Assembly (NCBI RefSeq): GCF_017875395.1
Contig: NZ_JAGGMO010000002.1
Span: 248,001 to 312,000, forward strand
DNA: 64,000 nucleotides
Direction of reading: 5' to 3'
DNA from: Methanococcus voltae
Lineage (GTDB): Archaea > AGJL01 > Methanococci > Methanococcales > Methanococcaceae
Shown here: in pieces, positions 3,550 to 29,885 of the stretch
Layout: the number at the start of each line of letters is the position of its first letter
How positions within the stretch are numbered: the stretch's first letter is position 1
The notes under the pieces: generated by a model
Told to the model about the DNA's origin: nothing
Databases searched by the model: none
Seen by the model: only the letters and a program-made list of their open reading frames with translations
Program-made: the position numbers and the translations under genes

Positions 3550-3670
3550 AATTTATTATTATATTACTTTTATTTTCTTATTTTTAATTTATTATTATAT
3601 TACTTTTATTTTCTTATTTTTAATTTATTATTATATTACTTTTATTTTCTTATTTTTAATTTATTATTAT
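3550..3670. repeat. 36-bp tandem repeat, 3.4 copies
   Basis: Copies begin at 3550, 3586 and 3622, with a partial copy at 3658. The unit starts AATTTATTATTATATTACTT and is T-rich on the plus strand. The three full copies are identical. It fills the space between the convergent genes rio1 and the UPF0200 kinase, where plus-strand U-tracts could end rio1 transcription. Confidence 0.85.
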
Positions 3671-3689
3671 TGATATTATTGTTATTTTT

Positions 3690-4247
3690 TTATTCTAGAA
3701 GATTATCAAATATATTTTCAACATTATTTAACACATCACTATATGTACCTTCATTAATAACCATGTAATCAGCAAGTGCTATGACGCTCCCGATTGTGAA
3801 ATCTAACTCCCTATTATCCCTTTCAATAAATACATCCCATTCTGTAGAATCATCTTCCCTACCGCGACTTCTTAATCTCTCAAATCGGGTTTTAGGTGAA
3901 GCATGTATTGCTAAAACTTCCACGTCATAGTATCTTTTAAAATAATTTAGTTCGTGCATGCTTCTCACACCTTCAACAGCTATGATATGCGTGTTTTCCT
4001 TATTTTTAGTCTCGACTTCATTCACTAAATTAATACACGGCACTGCAACTGCTTCAGCCCCGTAAAGTTCCCTTAGTTTTTTAGCCGTGTTTCCCACATT
4101 TTCAGGATTAAGTTCTAAACCCCGTTTTGTGGTCTCCTTTCTAACCACATCGCCCATTGAGACATACGCAATATGTTTGCTATCACATACTCCCTGAACT
4201 AAACTTTTTCCAGAACCCTGCATTCCTGTAATTGCAATAATTTTCAT
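3690..4247 (-). CDS. UPF0200 family P-loop nucleotide kinase-like protein
   Basis: 185 residues, with GGGAATTATT before the ATG. A Walker A motif, GMQGSGKS, is at residues 8-15 and a LID-like RLRSRGREDD lies near residue 130. The family (UPF0200) is archaeal and related to dephospho-CoA kinases and adenylate kinases; the true substrate is unknown. The segment VAVEGVRSMHELNYF is typical of this family. It is monocistronic, convergent with rio1. Confidence 0.8.
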   Translation of the reverse strand: MKIIAITGMQGSGKSLVQGVCDSKHIAYVSMGDVVRKETTKRGLELNPENVGNTAKKLRELYGAEAVAVPCINLVNEVETKNKENTHIIAVEGVRSMHELNYFKRYYDVEVLAIHASPKTRFERLRSRGREDDSTEWDVFIERDNRELDFTIGSVIALADYMVINEGTYSDVLNNVENIFDNLLE

Positions 4248-22142: not shown

Positions 22143-22820
22143 CTATAAAAATATCATATTGTATTTTAATGCAAGATTTTTCGCTTTTTGCATATTCGGA
22201 TATTCAGAAAACAATTTATCAATCAATTCATCTTTTGAATTCGAATCCAATGCCATTTTAAATATAGAAATTACTTCATCGATTAATTCATCTTTTTCCG
22301 TTTGGTTATTAAGTTTATCACCTTGTAGTTTCCATTTAGGTACTTCTAAAGTCATACAAAAAGCATTTTCATTTAATAACTTTCGGTACAATGGACTAAC
22401 GGATGCTACAAGTATATTATTTGAAATATCCACTAATGGAGGCACCCCTGTTTTTTTATACCTTTGTTCATTTGTTAAATTTTCATAACTTGCCTTTTCG
22501 TAGGTATGAACTTCAATATAAAAATTCGGAGAATGTTTTTTAAACAATTCCATTATTTTTTTACCTGCATTTGTATTTAAAAAATTTTTTGAAATCGTAG
22601 ATGTGTATTTTTCGTTATAATTTTTATTTAAATGAGGAATTACGGTAATTTCTAAACTTTCCAAATTTAGTGAAGTATCATTTAAATTATATTTAATAGG
22701 CATGTAATTATTAAATTTATCAAAAATTGGCTTTAAATCATAACCTTCGTCACCATGTAATCCACCTATTATTAATTTTTGAGTAATTTGTAAATTTTGT
22801 AAATTTTGTAAATCAGTCAT
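22143..22820 (-). CDS. DUF2119 protein, carboxypeptidase-like
   Basis: 225 residues. The segments IGGLHGDEGYD near residue 18 and NFYIEVHTYE near residue 100 resemble the His-x-x-Glu and His zinc ligands of the succinylglutamate desuccinylase/M14 fold, as in the archaeal DUF2119 family. The substrate is unknown. Near the N-terminus LQNLQNLQ comes from a 9-bp DNA repeat. It starts 11 bases after mobA on the same strand, so the two form an operon. Confidence 0.65.
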   Translation of the reverse strand: MTDLQNLQNLQITQKLIIGGLHGDEGYDLKPIFDKFNNYMPIKYNLNDTSLNLESLEITVIPHLNKNYNEKYTSTISKNFLNTNAGKKIMELFKKHSPNFYIEVHTYEKASYENLTNEQRYKKTGVPPLVDISNNILVASVSPLYRKLLNENAFCMTLEVPKWKLQGDKLNNQTEKDELIDEVISIFKMALDSNSKDELIDKLFSEYPNMQKAKNLALKYNMIFL

Positions 22821-24797: not shown

Positions 24798-26102
24798 TTA
24801 TCCGCCATTTACCAAAGTGTACAAGTAGATTACGAGCACTACTATGGGGTAAAAGTATTTTGCCCAAGGCTTCCATAATTTAGGAATTTTTACACTTGCG
24901 CCACGTTGTATATGCTCATATGCCTTATCAATACCGATTTTACCTAGTGCGATTGCTGCAAGTAATGCACCTAAAGGACCAATAAGTACTGTCGATATGT
25001 AGATTATAAAGTCAAAATATGGCATTCCAAATAAAGTTACACCTAAAAGGGAAGGTAAACTTACTAAAAATACCGCTAAACCTAAACCTATAGCTGCTAC
25101 AGTTCTGCTAATATTTGTTTTTGACATTACCGCTTCAACACAAACCTCTAGCATGGAAACTGACGAAGTAATTCCTGCAAACAATAAAGCTAGGAAGAAC
25201 AAAATTCCAATGTATAAACCGCCCGGCATTTGTTGGAATACTTCTGGCAAGATTGCAAATATTAAAGTAGGTCCTGCTTCCGGTGCAAATCCAAATGAAA
25301 ATACAGCTGGGAAAATGATTAAACCTGCTAAAAATGCCACAAGTGTATCACCAAAAGCCGTTACAACTGCTGAAACGGGTATATCTTCTTTTTCTTTTAG
25401 ATAACTACCATAAACGACCATTGTTGTACCTAAACAGCTCAGTGAGAAGAACATCTGTGATAATGCTATCATCCAAGTTCCTGGACTAAATAGCTTTTCC
25501 ATATCGGGTAATAAGTAAAATGAAAGCCCTTCGTTAACTCCCGGTAACATTAAACTGTTTATTGTTAAGAGTATAAGCAAAACATATAACACTGGCGTCA
25601 TAAAATTATTTGCTTTCTCTATACCTCTTTTTACACCCTTAGAAACGATAAAAATCGTTATGGCTATCCCTACAAATTGCCACATTGCCATCGATGGACT
25701 AAATGCCTGAGACGCTAAAAATTGACCTGCGTCAACTGCACTTAAACCTCCAAATAGCATATTTGATAAGTACATTATCATCCAACCTATAATAAGGGAA
25801 TAAAATGCAAAAACTAAAAACATTGTAAAATTAGCTAACATTCCGAAATATGTACCAAATGGGAGTCCTGCCTTCTCGAAAGCTACCACTGGACCGCCTT
25901 TCGTCATTCTACCTAATGTCCATTCTACGGTTAACGCTACAATACCAATTGATACTAACAATATAATATAAGGAATTAAGAATGCTGCTCCACCTTCGGT
26001 TCCAACTCTCCATGGAAACATCCATATATTGCCCAAACCTACTGCTGAACCAATTGCAGTTGCAATAAATCCCCTTTTAGAATTCCAAGTTTCACGAGTC
26101 AT
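24798..26102 (-). CDS. Sodium-dependent transporter, neurotransmitter symporter (NSS) family
   Basis: 434 residues with AGAGGT before the ATG. The N-terminus WNSKRGFIATAIGSAVGLGNIWMFPW is the unwound TM1 signature of LeuT-like carriers that binds sodium and substrate. About eleven or twelve hydrophobic segments follow. Prokaryotic NSS members import amino acids with Na+. The short length (LeuT has 511) and a single transcript fit archaeal members. It is adjacent to the trp locus, which invites the guess of an aromatic amino acid carrier, but this is only context. Confidence 0.92.
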   Translation of the reverse strand: MTRETWNSKRGFIATAIGSAVGLGNIWMFPWRVGTEGGAAFLIPYIILLVSIGIVALTVEWTLGRMTKGGPVVAFEKAGLPFGTYFGMLANFTMFLVFAFYSLIIGWMIMYLSNMLFGGLSAVDAGQFLASQAFSPSMAMWQFVGIAITIFIVSKGVKRGIEKANNFMTPVLYVLLILLTINSLMLPGVNEGLSFYLLPDMEKLFSPGTWMIALSQMFFSLSCLGTTMVVYGSYLKEKEDIPVSAVVTAFGDTLVAFLAGLIIFPAVFSFGFAPEAGPTLIFAILPEVFQQMPGGLYIGILFFLALLFAGITSSVSMLEVCVEAVMSKTNISRTVAAIGLGLAVFLVSLPSLLGVTLFGMPYFDFIIYISTVLIGPLGALLAAIALGKIGIDKAYEHIQRGASVKIPKLWKPWAKYFYPIVVLVIYLYTLVNGG

Positions 26103-26309: not shown

Positions 26310-27119
26310 TTATTTTTTTAATAAATAATCCATAATTTTTAATTCTATTTTTTCATCTAAAATATATTCTTTCAATAAAAGTGCTAAATTGTCTGATACA
26401 AGCGTACCTTCGAAGTACTCATGTGATTTATCAACTAATTCACTTTCAAACATACAATTTACAATTGTTTCACAATCGCAAATATTTGAAATGTTTTCCA
26501 TGTGCGAAGCCATGATTTCAGTATTAAATATATCCATCATATTGCCGGTCGTTAAATTCAATAACAACATTCCGTCGAGCGATTTTATTTTATCATTTAT
26601 TATTTTTATTTTTGATTCATCCAAGTTTGGAGATATCGCTAGTATTGGTTTTAAGCCGTATTTTTCACAGATATTCAATAATTCCTCGGATTCTTTATAA
26701 GGTATATCCGGGATATGAATATGCGTAAAGCCCATTTCTTTAATAGTTTTTATAAAGTTATCTAAACCTTTTACGTATGCAATATTGTAATACGTGTAAA
26801 GTACAGTTTTATTTTTCTTGCTAAAATCAATGTTTTTTAATTCATCAAACATTTTTTTGACTTCAAAACCATTTTTTAAAGCTTCTTCGCATAAATACTT
26901 CTCTGCGTCAGTTTCTGCTCCGGGGTCACTGAAAGGTATTTTTAATACAAAATTTACGTTTTTTTCGCCGGTTTCTGAATTTATTAAATTATTTAATAAT
27001 TTTGCAGATTCCTGCATATTTGGATATCCTAAAACATAAGAATAATAATATTCGCATACTTCTTTCGATTTTAATTCGGGTTTTTCTGATTCTTTTTTTG
27101 TAATTTGAATTGATTCCAT
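26310..27119 (-). CDS. trpA: TrpA-like protein lacking tryptophan synthase alpha catalytic residues
   Basis: 269 residues with GGTGAT before the ATG. The TIM-barrel alignment to TrpA is clear: IPFSDPGAETDAEK, VLYTYYNIAYVKGLDNFI, HIHIPDIPYKES and GLKPILAISPNLDE. But residues needed for indole-glycerol phosphate cleavage are changed. Glu49 of the E. coli enzyme corresponds to Val58, Asp60 to Glu69 and Tyr175 to about Leu185. The phosphate-binding GFGI and GSA segments are replaced by NCMFE and VSDN. It lies 107 bases downstream of trpB on the same strand. It may be an allosteric partner of TrpB without lyase activity, or a decaying duplicate. Confidence 0.82.
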   Translation of the reverse strand: MESIQITKKESEKPELKSKEVCEYYYSYVLGYPNMQESAKLLNNLINSETGEKNVNFVLKIPFSDPGAETDAEKYLCEEALKNGFEVKKMFDELKNIDFSKKNKTVLYTYYNIAYVKGLDNFIKTIKEMGFTHIHIPDIPYKESEELLNICEKYGLKPILAISPNLDESKIKIINDKIKSLDGMLLLNLTTGNMMDIFNTEIMASHMENISNICDCETIVNCMFESELVDKSHEYFEGTLVSDNLALLLKEYILDEKIELKIMDYLLKK

Positions 27120-27226: not shown

Positions 27227-28504
27227 TTAAATCATATCATACATTTTTAAGTGTTTTAAAGCGTTATCTAAGTCTTTATCGCCCCTACCTGATAAATTAA
27301 CAACCATTATTTCATCTTTATCCATTTCTCCGGCTACATTCATCGCATGAGCTATGGCATGTGATGACTCCATTGCTGGAATAATTCCTTCGCATTGGCA
27401 GAGTGTTTTAAACGCATTTAAAGCTTCCTTATCAGTTGCTCCAGTGTACTGAATTCTTCCAATATCGTTTAAGTGCGCATGTTCTGGACCAACTCCAGGG
27501 TAATCCAATCCTGCGGAAATACTGTATGCTTCTTCAATCTGACCGTCATCATTTTGCATGAAATATGACATCATACCGTGGAATACTCCTTTTTTGCCTT
27601 TAGTAACTGCTGCACCGTGCTCTTTTGTATCCAAACCTTTTCCTGCAGGTTCTACACCAGTCATTGTGACATCTTTATCATTTAAAAAGGCGTGGAATAA
27701 ACCTATTGCATTACTTCCACCACCAACACAAGCCACCAAATGGTCTGGTAATCTACCTTCTTGTTCCATTATTTGTTTTTTAGCTTCTTTACCAATTACA
27801 GATTGGAAATCCCTTACAATCAAAGGGAAAGGATGAGGTCCAACCACTGAACCAACCAAATAGTGCGTATCTGCAAAATTCTTAACGAATTCTTCCAAAG
27901 CCTTGTTTACGGCATCTTTTAAAACTTTTGAACCTTCATCGACAGGGGTTACTTTTGCACCCATTAATTCCATTCTTGAAACATTTGGTTGTTGTCTTTC
28001 TACGTCGATTCTACCCATAAAAACTTCTGTTTTTAAACCAAATAGTGCTCCAACCATTGCAGTACCAACACCGTGTTGACCTGCACCAGTTTCAGCAATT
28101 AATCTTTTTTTGCCCATCTTTTTAGCAAGTAATGCTTGACCTAATGTGTTATTTGTTTTGTGGGCACCACCGTGCAATAAATCCTCTCTTTTTAAGTAGA
28201 TTTTGGCACCGCCAAGTTTCTCGGTTAATTCTTTTGCATAATAAAGGGGCGTTTCCCTACCTGCATATTGCTTTAAATAATACGTAAGCTCATTTTGAAA
28301 ATCTTCATCATCCCGGTATTGGAAATACTGCTCTTCAAGTTCTTCAAGTACTGGAATCATTGTTTCAGGTACGTATTGACCACCAAAACCTCCGAATTTT
28401 CCGAATTTTCCATTTTCAGCGTCAATGTAATCTTCGAGGCTTTTTAAATTTTTTGATTGTCTTTTTTGAGTGTTTTTAGTGTTTTTAGTGTTATCATTTT
28501 TCAT
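27227..28504 (-). CDS. trpB: Tryptophan synthase beta chain
   Basis: 425 residues from the ATG at 28502-28504, five bases after GGTGA; the frame to 28528 is not used. Residues 1-30 are a polar extension. The PLP enzyme motifs are complete: [25 protein letters not shown] (the Lys binds PLP), AETGAGQHG with the catalytic Glu, [12 protein letters not shown] (phosphate cup) and [12 protein letters not shown]. This is the TrpB1 class that normally pairs with TrpA. No other trp genes lie in the window. Upstream is a 1.3-kb leader region with a Trp-Trp containing reading frame. Confidence 0.96.
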
Positions 28505-28845
28505 AAATTCACCATTTTTAATTTTCATTTTTTTGATATTATTTTTAATTTTTAGAGATAGTTGCCATATAATTGAATATTGCGTAATAACTTGATAATT
28601 TTAATAACTTAATAATTTTGACAAGTTTATTTTGATAGATTAATAAGTTAACAATTCATCGTAGTTTAATAATTGCAAAAAAGTCGATATCATCATCTAG
28701 GTAGATTTACATCTGATTGATTATACTTCTTGATTTAATAATTCACTTATTCATTCATTTAGATATATAATACAATGAATATATACATTAAATCATAAAA
28801 TTAACATATCAGATAACTTCGATTAATAGATTATTGATATACTAT
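28505..28845. other. Spacer between trpB and the upstream leader element
   Basis: A 340-base A+T-rich stretch. On the minus strand TTATATATC near 28770 is a possible second TATA box for trpB alone. I see no TGTACA site of the kind bound by TrpY in other methanogens, and no coding frame. Confidence 0.4.
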
Positions 28846-28920
28846 TGATACTACTCAGGGACTTCTTGCACATAACCTTGCTATTACTATAGCGATAAGT
28901 AGTTAGTGCCACCACTGGAA
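28846..28920 (-). promoter_or_regulatory. Candidate structured RNA element upstream of trpB
   Basis: A patch clearly richer in G+C than its flanks. On the minus strand GCACTAAC (28909-28902) pairs with GTTA and GTGC (28876-28868, one bulged U). Inside is a 5-bp hairpin GCTAT/ATAGC (28893-28880). Alternatively ACTACT (28903-28898) pairs with AGTAGT (28855-28850); the two pairings share bases and exclude one another. Two Trp codons end at 28909, at the start of the first stem. Confidence 0.45.
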
Positions 28921-29097
28921 TAAAAAAGCGTTAGAGTTTACACTATTTGAAAATAAATTGGATACTGTTGATACAGTTGATAATATTGATAATTTCGATA
29001 CTTTTGATAAAGGCATTACTGACGTTTTCTTTGAAACTTCGGCCTTCAGCTTACTTTTTAACATTACTTTTATGTTCGATTCCATAGTTTCTACCAT
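28903..29097 (-). CDS. Possible leader peptide ending Trp-Trp-His, upstream of trpB
   Basis: A 64-codon frame from the ATG at 29095-29097, or 60 residues from the ATG at 29083-29085, which has a weak GATGGTAG signal. It ends ...FLFQWWH, then TAA at 28903-28905. Trp is rare in this proteome, so a terminal Trp pair on the trpB strand is striking. A TATA-like AAAATATATATATT near 29150 could drive it. The middle is Ser/Val-rich and repeats STVSTVS. The opposite strand is also open over this stretch (from a TTG at 28958), so coding is not certain. Confidence 0.4.
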   Translation of the reverse strand: MVETMESNIKVMLKSKLKAEVSKKTSVMPLSKVSKLSILSTVSTVSNLFSNSVNSNAFLFQWWH

Positions 29098-29885
29098 CAA
29101 TATGTTATATTCGTTTTTTAGATTTATTTTCACTATAGATATTTTAATATATATATTTTATTATGATTTATAATTTTACTATAATTTTATTATAATTTAT
29201 TATAGTGTATTATAATTTATTATAACGTATTATGGCGTGTAATACATTATTATTGTTAAACCTAAATTGTATATTAATATACATAAATTGTATATAAGTT
29301 ATCGAACTATTTTATTTAATCGTAATATTATTTTAAAATTATTATGAATAGGTAATACAAAAAAGAAAATTATATATACTAAAATATGCTAACATATTAT
29401 ACGTAATATTTTTTTAAAATAAGTATTACTGTAACATACCAATTAAGTATGACAACTAAATAATGAAATACGACTTCATAGTAAAATTAGGATACAAAAA
29501 ATACTTAAATATTAAAATATATCAACATATAAAAATAAATATTAAAAATAAACGATAAACATTGTTGTAGTATCAAAATACTACCTCCAAACTAATATAA
29601 TATACAATAAAACAATAAAACTCTCTAATATTTAATATACAATATAATTAACATGCAAATATAGACGTACAACAGATAATATATACTAAATTAAAAAATA
29701 ATAGCATAAATTACCAAAATGATATTTTATCGAAAGATATTTTATCATAATAATATTTTAATTAATATTTTATGATGTCGATAAATAAATAACTAAAATA
29801 AAAACAATATTATCTAATATTCAATTAAAAATATTGTAGAGTATTAGCTAATTTATCATTTTGGCATATCTTTGAGGTGTTAGAT
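29098..29885. other. Long intergenic region before cbiM
   Basis: About 790 bases, A+T-rich. A 17-base direct repeat TATTATAATTTATTATA lies at 29188-29204 and 29208-29224, upstream of the trp leader on the minus strand. The rest is TATA-like sequence without a convincing gene. The GAGGTG ribosome-binding site of cbiM is at the right end. Confidence 0.45.

Follow-up and report, generated by a model that had tools for sequence, protein, structure and literature searches.

Genes and features of the trpB'A' locus

The stretch of DNA analysed here (the window) comprises 64,000 nucleotides of a contig of Methanococcus voltae (NZ_JAGGMO010000002.1, positions 248,001 to 312,000), and all coordinates below are those of the window. 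Its minus strand carries two adjacent genes related to the alpha and beta subunits of tryptophan synthase. We call them trpA' and trpB', since TrpA2 and TrpB2 are names already used for something else in work on archaea (PMC1854888). The features of the locus are the following:

24798..26102, minus strand: gene for an NSS sodium symporter, MhsT-like (phmmer best PDB match 4us3; NF037979)
26310..27119, minus strand: trpA', a TrpA-fold protein of 269 amino acids without the alpha active site (ORF, PF00290, residue table, model and PDB match, dN/dS)
27227..28504, minus strand: trpB', a TrpB1-type beta subunit of 425 amino acids from its likely start (TIGR00263, residue map, tree, Shine-Dalgarno)
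28903..29085, minus strand: leader ORF, 60 amino acids from the ATG at 29085, ending ...NAFLFQWWH-stop, with tandem Trp codons at 28909-28914
28903..28917, minus strand: the 15-mer CAGTGGTGGCACTAA (Q-W-W-H-stop), located by genome search

The order of transcription is thus leader ORF, trpB', trpA' and NSS gene. The longest ORF of trpB' extends to 28528, and its start is likely the second ATG (28504), which is preceded by a GGTGA Shine-Dalgarno sequence, as in a sister species. Between trpB' and cbiM (28505-29876) there is about 1.4 kb without any large gene; a third related species (G006) lacks the leader portion of this region but shares the portion next to cbiM at about 75% similarity.

The NSS gene might be co-transcribed with trpB'A', and by homology it would encode an amino-acid or tryptophan importer. 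A functional link to the pair was considered and is weakened by G006, which keeps this gene in the same place (85% alike) without either the pair or a second leader; the MhsT-like transporter is compatible with amino-acid uptake, without being tied to trpB'A'. Farther along the window, a gene at 22143-22820 without any NCBIfam match appears loosely constrained (dN/dS 0.27, against 0.01-0.1 for its neighbours).

The alpha active site is lost and the beta active site is kept

The TrpA' protein belongs to the TrpA family by its Pfam profile (PF00290, 72 bits against a cut-off of 27), and falls under the cut-off of the curated trpA profile TIGR00262 (91 bits against 102). Its structural model is a TIM barrel (pLDDT 73) whose top PDB matches are all TrpA, the best being that of P. 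furiosus (E about 1e-14); this model was built on an alignment of mostly canonical TrpA, so it cannot count as evidence separate from the sequence match. Identity to canonical TrpA is only about 24-28%, with divergence over most of the length, and 32 of the 81 columns conserved among 20 canonical Methanococcaceae TrpA survive.

An earlier note, made from the sequence alone, had described a TrpA homologue without its key catalytic residues beside a TrpB with every catalytic motif intact, and its residue claims held. In the numbering of the E. coli subunits (confirmed for the key residues of TrpB), the position of Glu49 is Val58 when read ungapped and a gap in the MAFFT alignment, and that of Asp60 is Glu69. 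Tyr175, which the note had placed at about Leu185, corresponds to Gly183 to Leu185, a register that is uncertain by two residues because loop 6 of TrpA' is one residue shorter. The phosphate-binding loops are indeed replaced, with G211/G213 changed to Met/Glu (GFG to M-F-E) and G234-S235-A236 to Ser-Asp-Asn; F22 is now Ser, and four residues are deleted ahead of the last phosphate strand. In all, TrpA' lacks F22, E49, G51, D60 (Glu), G61, Y175, G181, G211, G213, G234, S235 and A236, and retains G26, P28, I52-P57 (IPFSDP), A59, Y102-N104 (YYN), D130, P132, T183 and G184. The Glu/Asp/Tyr triad is strictly conserved across the archaeal and bacterial TrpA aligned in PMC1854888. It is very likely that IGP cleavage is absent in TrpA', a prediction that rests on residue loss only, with the activity untested.

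TrpB', for its part, keeps all the catalytic residues (K87, E109, R141, K167, G232-N236, D305, E350 and S377), as the residue map confirms. It scores 630 bits with TIGR00263 (cut-off 392) and 185 bits with TIGR01415, is 74% identical to the canonical TrpB of the same genome, and keeps 153 of 164 family-invariant columns.

Neither protein contains any Trp residue, and W177, invariant in 21 TrpB of the family, is Phe in TrpB'. As a sign of use under starvation, this absence is weak, since the canonical Trp enzymes are nearly Trp-free too; the loss of the invariant W177 is the exception.

Distribution, selection and leader ORFs

The same genome carries a complete trpCDEGFBA operon on another contig (C8), whose trpA is intact, with IELGIPFSDPVADG, YVGFGIS and IIVGSAF all present; tryptophan can therefore be made from chorismate without the trpB'A' locus. 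The intact trpA elsewhere in the genome, whose search the earlier note had proposed, is thus found, and the two alternatives of that note, a pseudoenzyme or a second trp locus beside a normal trpA, are both supported and mutually compatible, although TrpB' activation and the condensation of serine with indole remain inferences.

Among 36 Methanococci genomes (the class-level and phylum-level sets are the same 36), the pair occurs in two, those of the source species and of one sister species (G005), where TrpA' is 96% identical and the locus is in full synteny. In G006 the surrounding genes are the same, the NSS gene among them, but neither trpB'A' nor the second leader is present, and no remnant of the pair was found in the corresponding gap. 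The leader, trpB' and trpA' were therefore probably gained or lost together, as a single cassette. Two wider contig scans for relatives of TrpA' yielded, in one, nothing and, in the other, only two Ferruginibacter matches of 26-29% identity, likely ordinary TrpA; no relatives were found among viral contigs.

In the tree, the canonical TrpB sequences of all seven Methanococcus genomes form the sister group of TrpB' (100/99), inside the genus clade (96/93). This placement could suit either an old duplication within the genus with subsequent losses or acquisition by transfer from a close relative, and it may also have been pulled down by rapid change in TrpB' itself. The branch of TrpA' measures 3.68 changes per site and that of TrpB' 0.27, lengths that indicate that the alpha subunit was rebuilt after the duplication and the beta subunit was not.

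The pair is not decaying. Between the source and sister species, dN/dS values (Nei-Gojobori) are 0.048 for trpA', 0.026 for trpB' and 0.022 for the NSS gene, against 0.113 and 0.041 for the canonical trpA and trpB, so purifying selection in this species pair is stronger on trpB'A' than on the canonical copies. The trpA' comparison covers 268 codons with 45 synonymous changes; neither species shows any frameshift or stop, and the Shine-Dalgarno sequence is kept. With only two closely related species, the case for conservation amounts to one comparison, in which TrpA' differs at 11 to 12 amino acids. These changes are unevenly spread, with 1 in 141 positions at residues 37-177 and 8 in 92 after residue 177 (p 0.003); they cluster after 177, and therefore the half bearing loops 2 to 4 appears constrained and the half of the old phosphate site looser. 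Canonical TrpA follows the same trend, but more weakly (9/135 against 16/111, p 0.056), and the windows for these Fisher tests were picked after the data had been seen.

The genes of the pair share a leader motif with the canonical operon. Genome-wide, CAGTGGTGGCACTAA occurs only upstream of trpB' and of the canonical trpC, with two copies in the source genome, two in G005 and one in G006, all of them at trp loci; the reversed 15-mer, used as a control, is absent from those genomes. Upstream of the canonical operon, all seven Methanococcus genomes carry a short ORF with a Shine-Dalgarno-like sequence and an LFQWW[HQ]-stop ending, which in the source genome reads LSQWWH-stop (the leaders of the seven genomes are L006, about 3574-3706, L083 and L101-L105). 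The trpB' leader, which ends LFQWWH-stop in both species, is a different ORF. On the 3' side of the canonical leader lie two hairpins, one spanning the Trp codons and the other with two compensatory pairs among the seven sequences; after the trpB' leader no significant fold was found, nor any Rfam match around trpB'. Other FQWW-coding matches away from trp loci do not immediately precede a stop and appear to be chance matches.

A leader-like ORF, MELSNRTRLSTIYKMDTFFNNYSNVAWRWW-stop (ending AWRWW-stop), with three terminal Trp codons, precedes trpC on the minus strand in a species from a different genus of this family (G009).

Given the shared motif, trpB'A' appears to be wired as a tryptophan gene set, and we regard the QWW[H/Q]-stop ORFs as candidate archaeal tryptophan leader peptides. 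Their action is inferred, and attenuation, a nascent-peptide effect or polarity are all conceivable. Little was known of tryptophan regulation in archaea beyond TrpY by 2019 (PMC6737238); no account of such a Methanococcus leader was found in the literature searched, and ribosome-based leader-peptide control of tryptophan sensing is, to our knowledge, not known in archaea. In the bacterial trpL attenuator, too, trp genes are preceded by a short ORF containing consecutive Trp codons, with a hairpin at these codons, whereas the present leaders are archaeal, carry their Trp codons at the very end before the stop, and have no established terminator/antiterminator pair.

Proposed function of the pair and rival explanations

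Because the active site is lost while the loops facing the beta subunit are kept, selection is strong, and the helix of TrpB' shows matching changes, TrpA' reads as a non-catalytic partner of TrpB'. Such a partnership is likely, although inferred and without binding or activity data. The surface residues that face TrpB were assigned from the literature and from general knowledge of the Salmonella enzyme. In the beta subunit, K167, R175 and S178 contact loops 2 and 6 of alpha (PMC6608616), in a stretch that lies on the COMM helix, and the described contact pair formed by D56 of TrpA' and K167 of TrpB' is retained. In the invariant columns of residues 167-178, TrpB' is changed at three of eight (E172K, R175E and W177F), out of 11 changes in all (p 0.011), a stretch that was selected after the changes had been seen. 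R175 of TrpB normally contacts the Asp60 region of alpha, and this contact would be free to change in TrpB' because Asp60 and alpha catalysis are gone. The changes on the COMM helix may thus have evolved together with those of TrpA', and might keep the two proteins apart from the canonical pair, with no model of the complex at hand; they could also reflect a loss of alpha binding by TrpB'. It is also possible that the interface residues kept in TrpA' serve in part for folding, given the overall divergence.

The reading that we prefer, by a modest margin, is that TrpA', itself non-catalytic, activates TrpB' as its partner subunit, and that when tryptophan is short the two produce it from serine and free indole. 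Its basis in the sequences is established, namely the loss of the alpha active site, the intact beta active site, purifying selection and the common leader motif; complex formation, activation, the indole substrate and the action of the leader are all inferred. TrpA' would bind TrpB' through its retained loop-2, loop-3 and loop-4 surface and, as a subunit, activate it, close it and perhaps gate indole, with TrpB' condensing L-serine and free indole into tryptophan. The indole would come from outside the cell or leak from the canonical TrpA, no source having been shown for this organism. The upstream leader with its tandem Trp codons would couple expression to tryptophan shortage, alongside the canonical operon.

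Several other explanations deserve consideration. That trpA' is a pseudogene decaying beside a useful second trpB could be argued from its low identity to canonical TrpA and its many active-site losses, but is all but excluded by the dN/dS of 0.048, the open frames in two species and the conserved Shine-Dalgarno sequence. It is also very unlikely that a rearranged active site, in which Glu69 stands for Asp60 and another acid acts elsewhere, still allows TrpA' to cleave IGP: Glu69 is a conservative replacement and T183-G184 are kept, but strand 2 holds no acid (residues 56-60 are NFVLK), Gly211, Gly213, Gly234, Ser235, Phe22 and Tyr175 are all replaced, and the triad is strictly conserved in the TrpA aligned in PMC1854888.

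An unlikely, though less remote, possibility is that TrpA' gained a new catalytic activity or ligand, other than IGP cleavage, and that TrpB' uses the product or is regulated by the ligand. Strong purifying selection following a long burst of change (3.68 against 0.27) speaks for it, as do the acidic and basic residues that have newly appeared where the active site used to be (Lys60 in place of G51, Glu69 in place of D60, Glu73 and Lys74); against it stand the destruction of the phosphate-binding loops, the faster change of the C-terminal third (strands 7-8, where phosphate is normally bound) and the Trp leader motif, which points to plain tryptophan supply. Equally doubtful is a TrpB' that acts alone on indole, with TrpA' as a separate regulator that binds, for instance, the canonical TrpB or titrates subunits. 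E172K, R175E and W177F on the alpha-contact helix might uncouple TrpB' from TrpA, and an extra trpB outside the operon is common in archaea (PMC1854888, TrpB2 type); however, the two genes are adjacent, strongly conserved and identical in phyletic pattern, and both members of the K167/D56 pair are kept.

The preferred reading of an activating TrpA' has a counterpart in urogenital Chlamydia trachomatis, whose TrpA is unable to make indole from IGP, yet whose TrpB needs full-length TrpA (PMC6635532). An active TrpB accompanied by an alpha subunit without IGP cleavage, the use of free indole and regulation by tryptophan (PMC6635532, PMC6608616) are features predicted for trpB'A' as well. In contrast to the chlamydial system, trpB'A' is archaeal, its TrpA' is far more diverged, it has an upstream leader ORF and no repressor gene in the unit, and it accompanies a complete canonical trpCDEGFBA operon instead of replacing a lost one. 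With the TrpA1-TrpB1 pair of the P. furiosus type it shares the TrpA fold and a TrpB1-type beta subunit with K87/E109/D305/S377, but it lies outside the trp operon, its TrpA' lacks E49, D60, Y175 and the phosphate site, and the alpha-contact helix of its TrpB' is altered. The archaeal TrpB2 (trpB2_o/_a) is likewise a second trpB outside the trp operon, whereas TrpB' is of the TrpB1 type by sequence and has its own trpA-like partner.

A bolder reading, towards which we lean less than away, is that translation of a leader with tandem Trp codons at its end serves Methanococcus as a tryptophan sensor, and that in one lineage the same control drives a dedicated indole-salvage synthase in which a dead TrpA paralogue does no more than activate and shape the TrpB that belongs to it, the two being insulated from their canonical counterparts. 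Under the proposed function, the catalytic role of TrpA and its role as an activator of TrpB would be found naturally separated and under selection, beside the complete enzyme in one genome, and the allosteric half of TrpA would be open to study without the catalytic half. Moreover, the leader peptide common to both loci would allow the control of amino-acid genes by such peptides to be tested directly in an archaeal genus that is genetically tractable.
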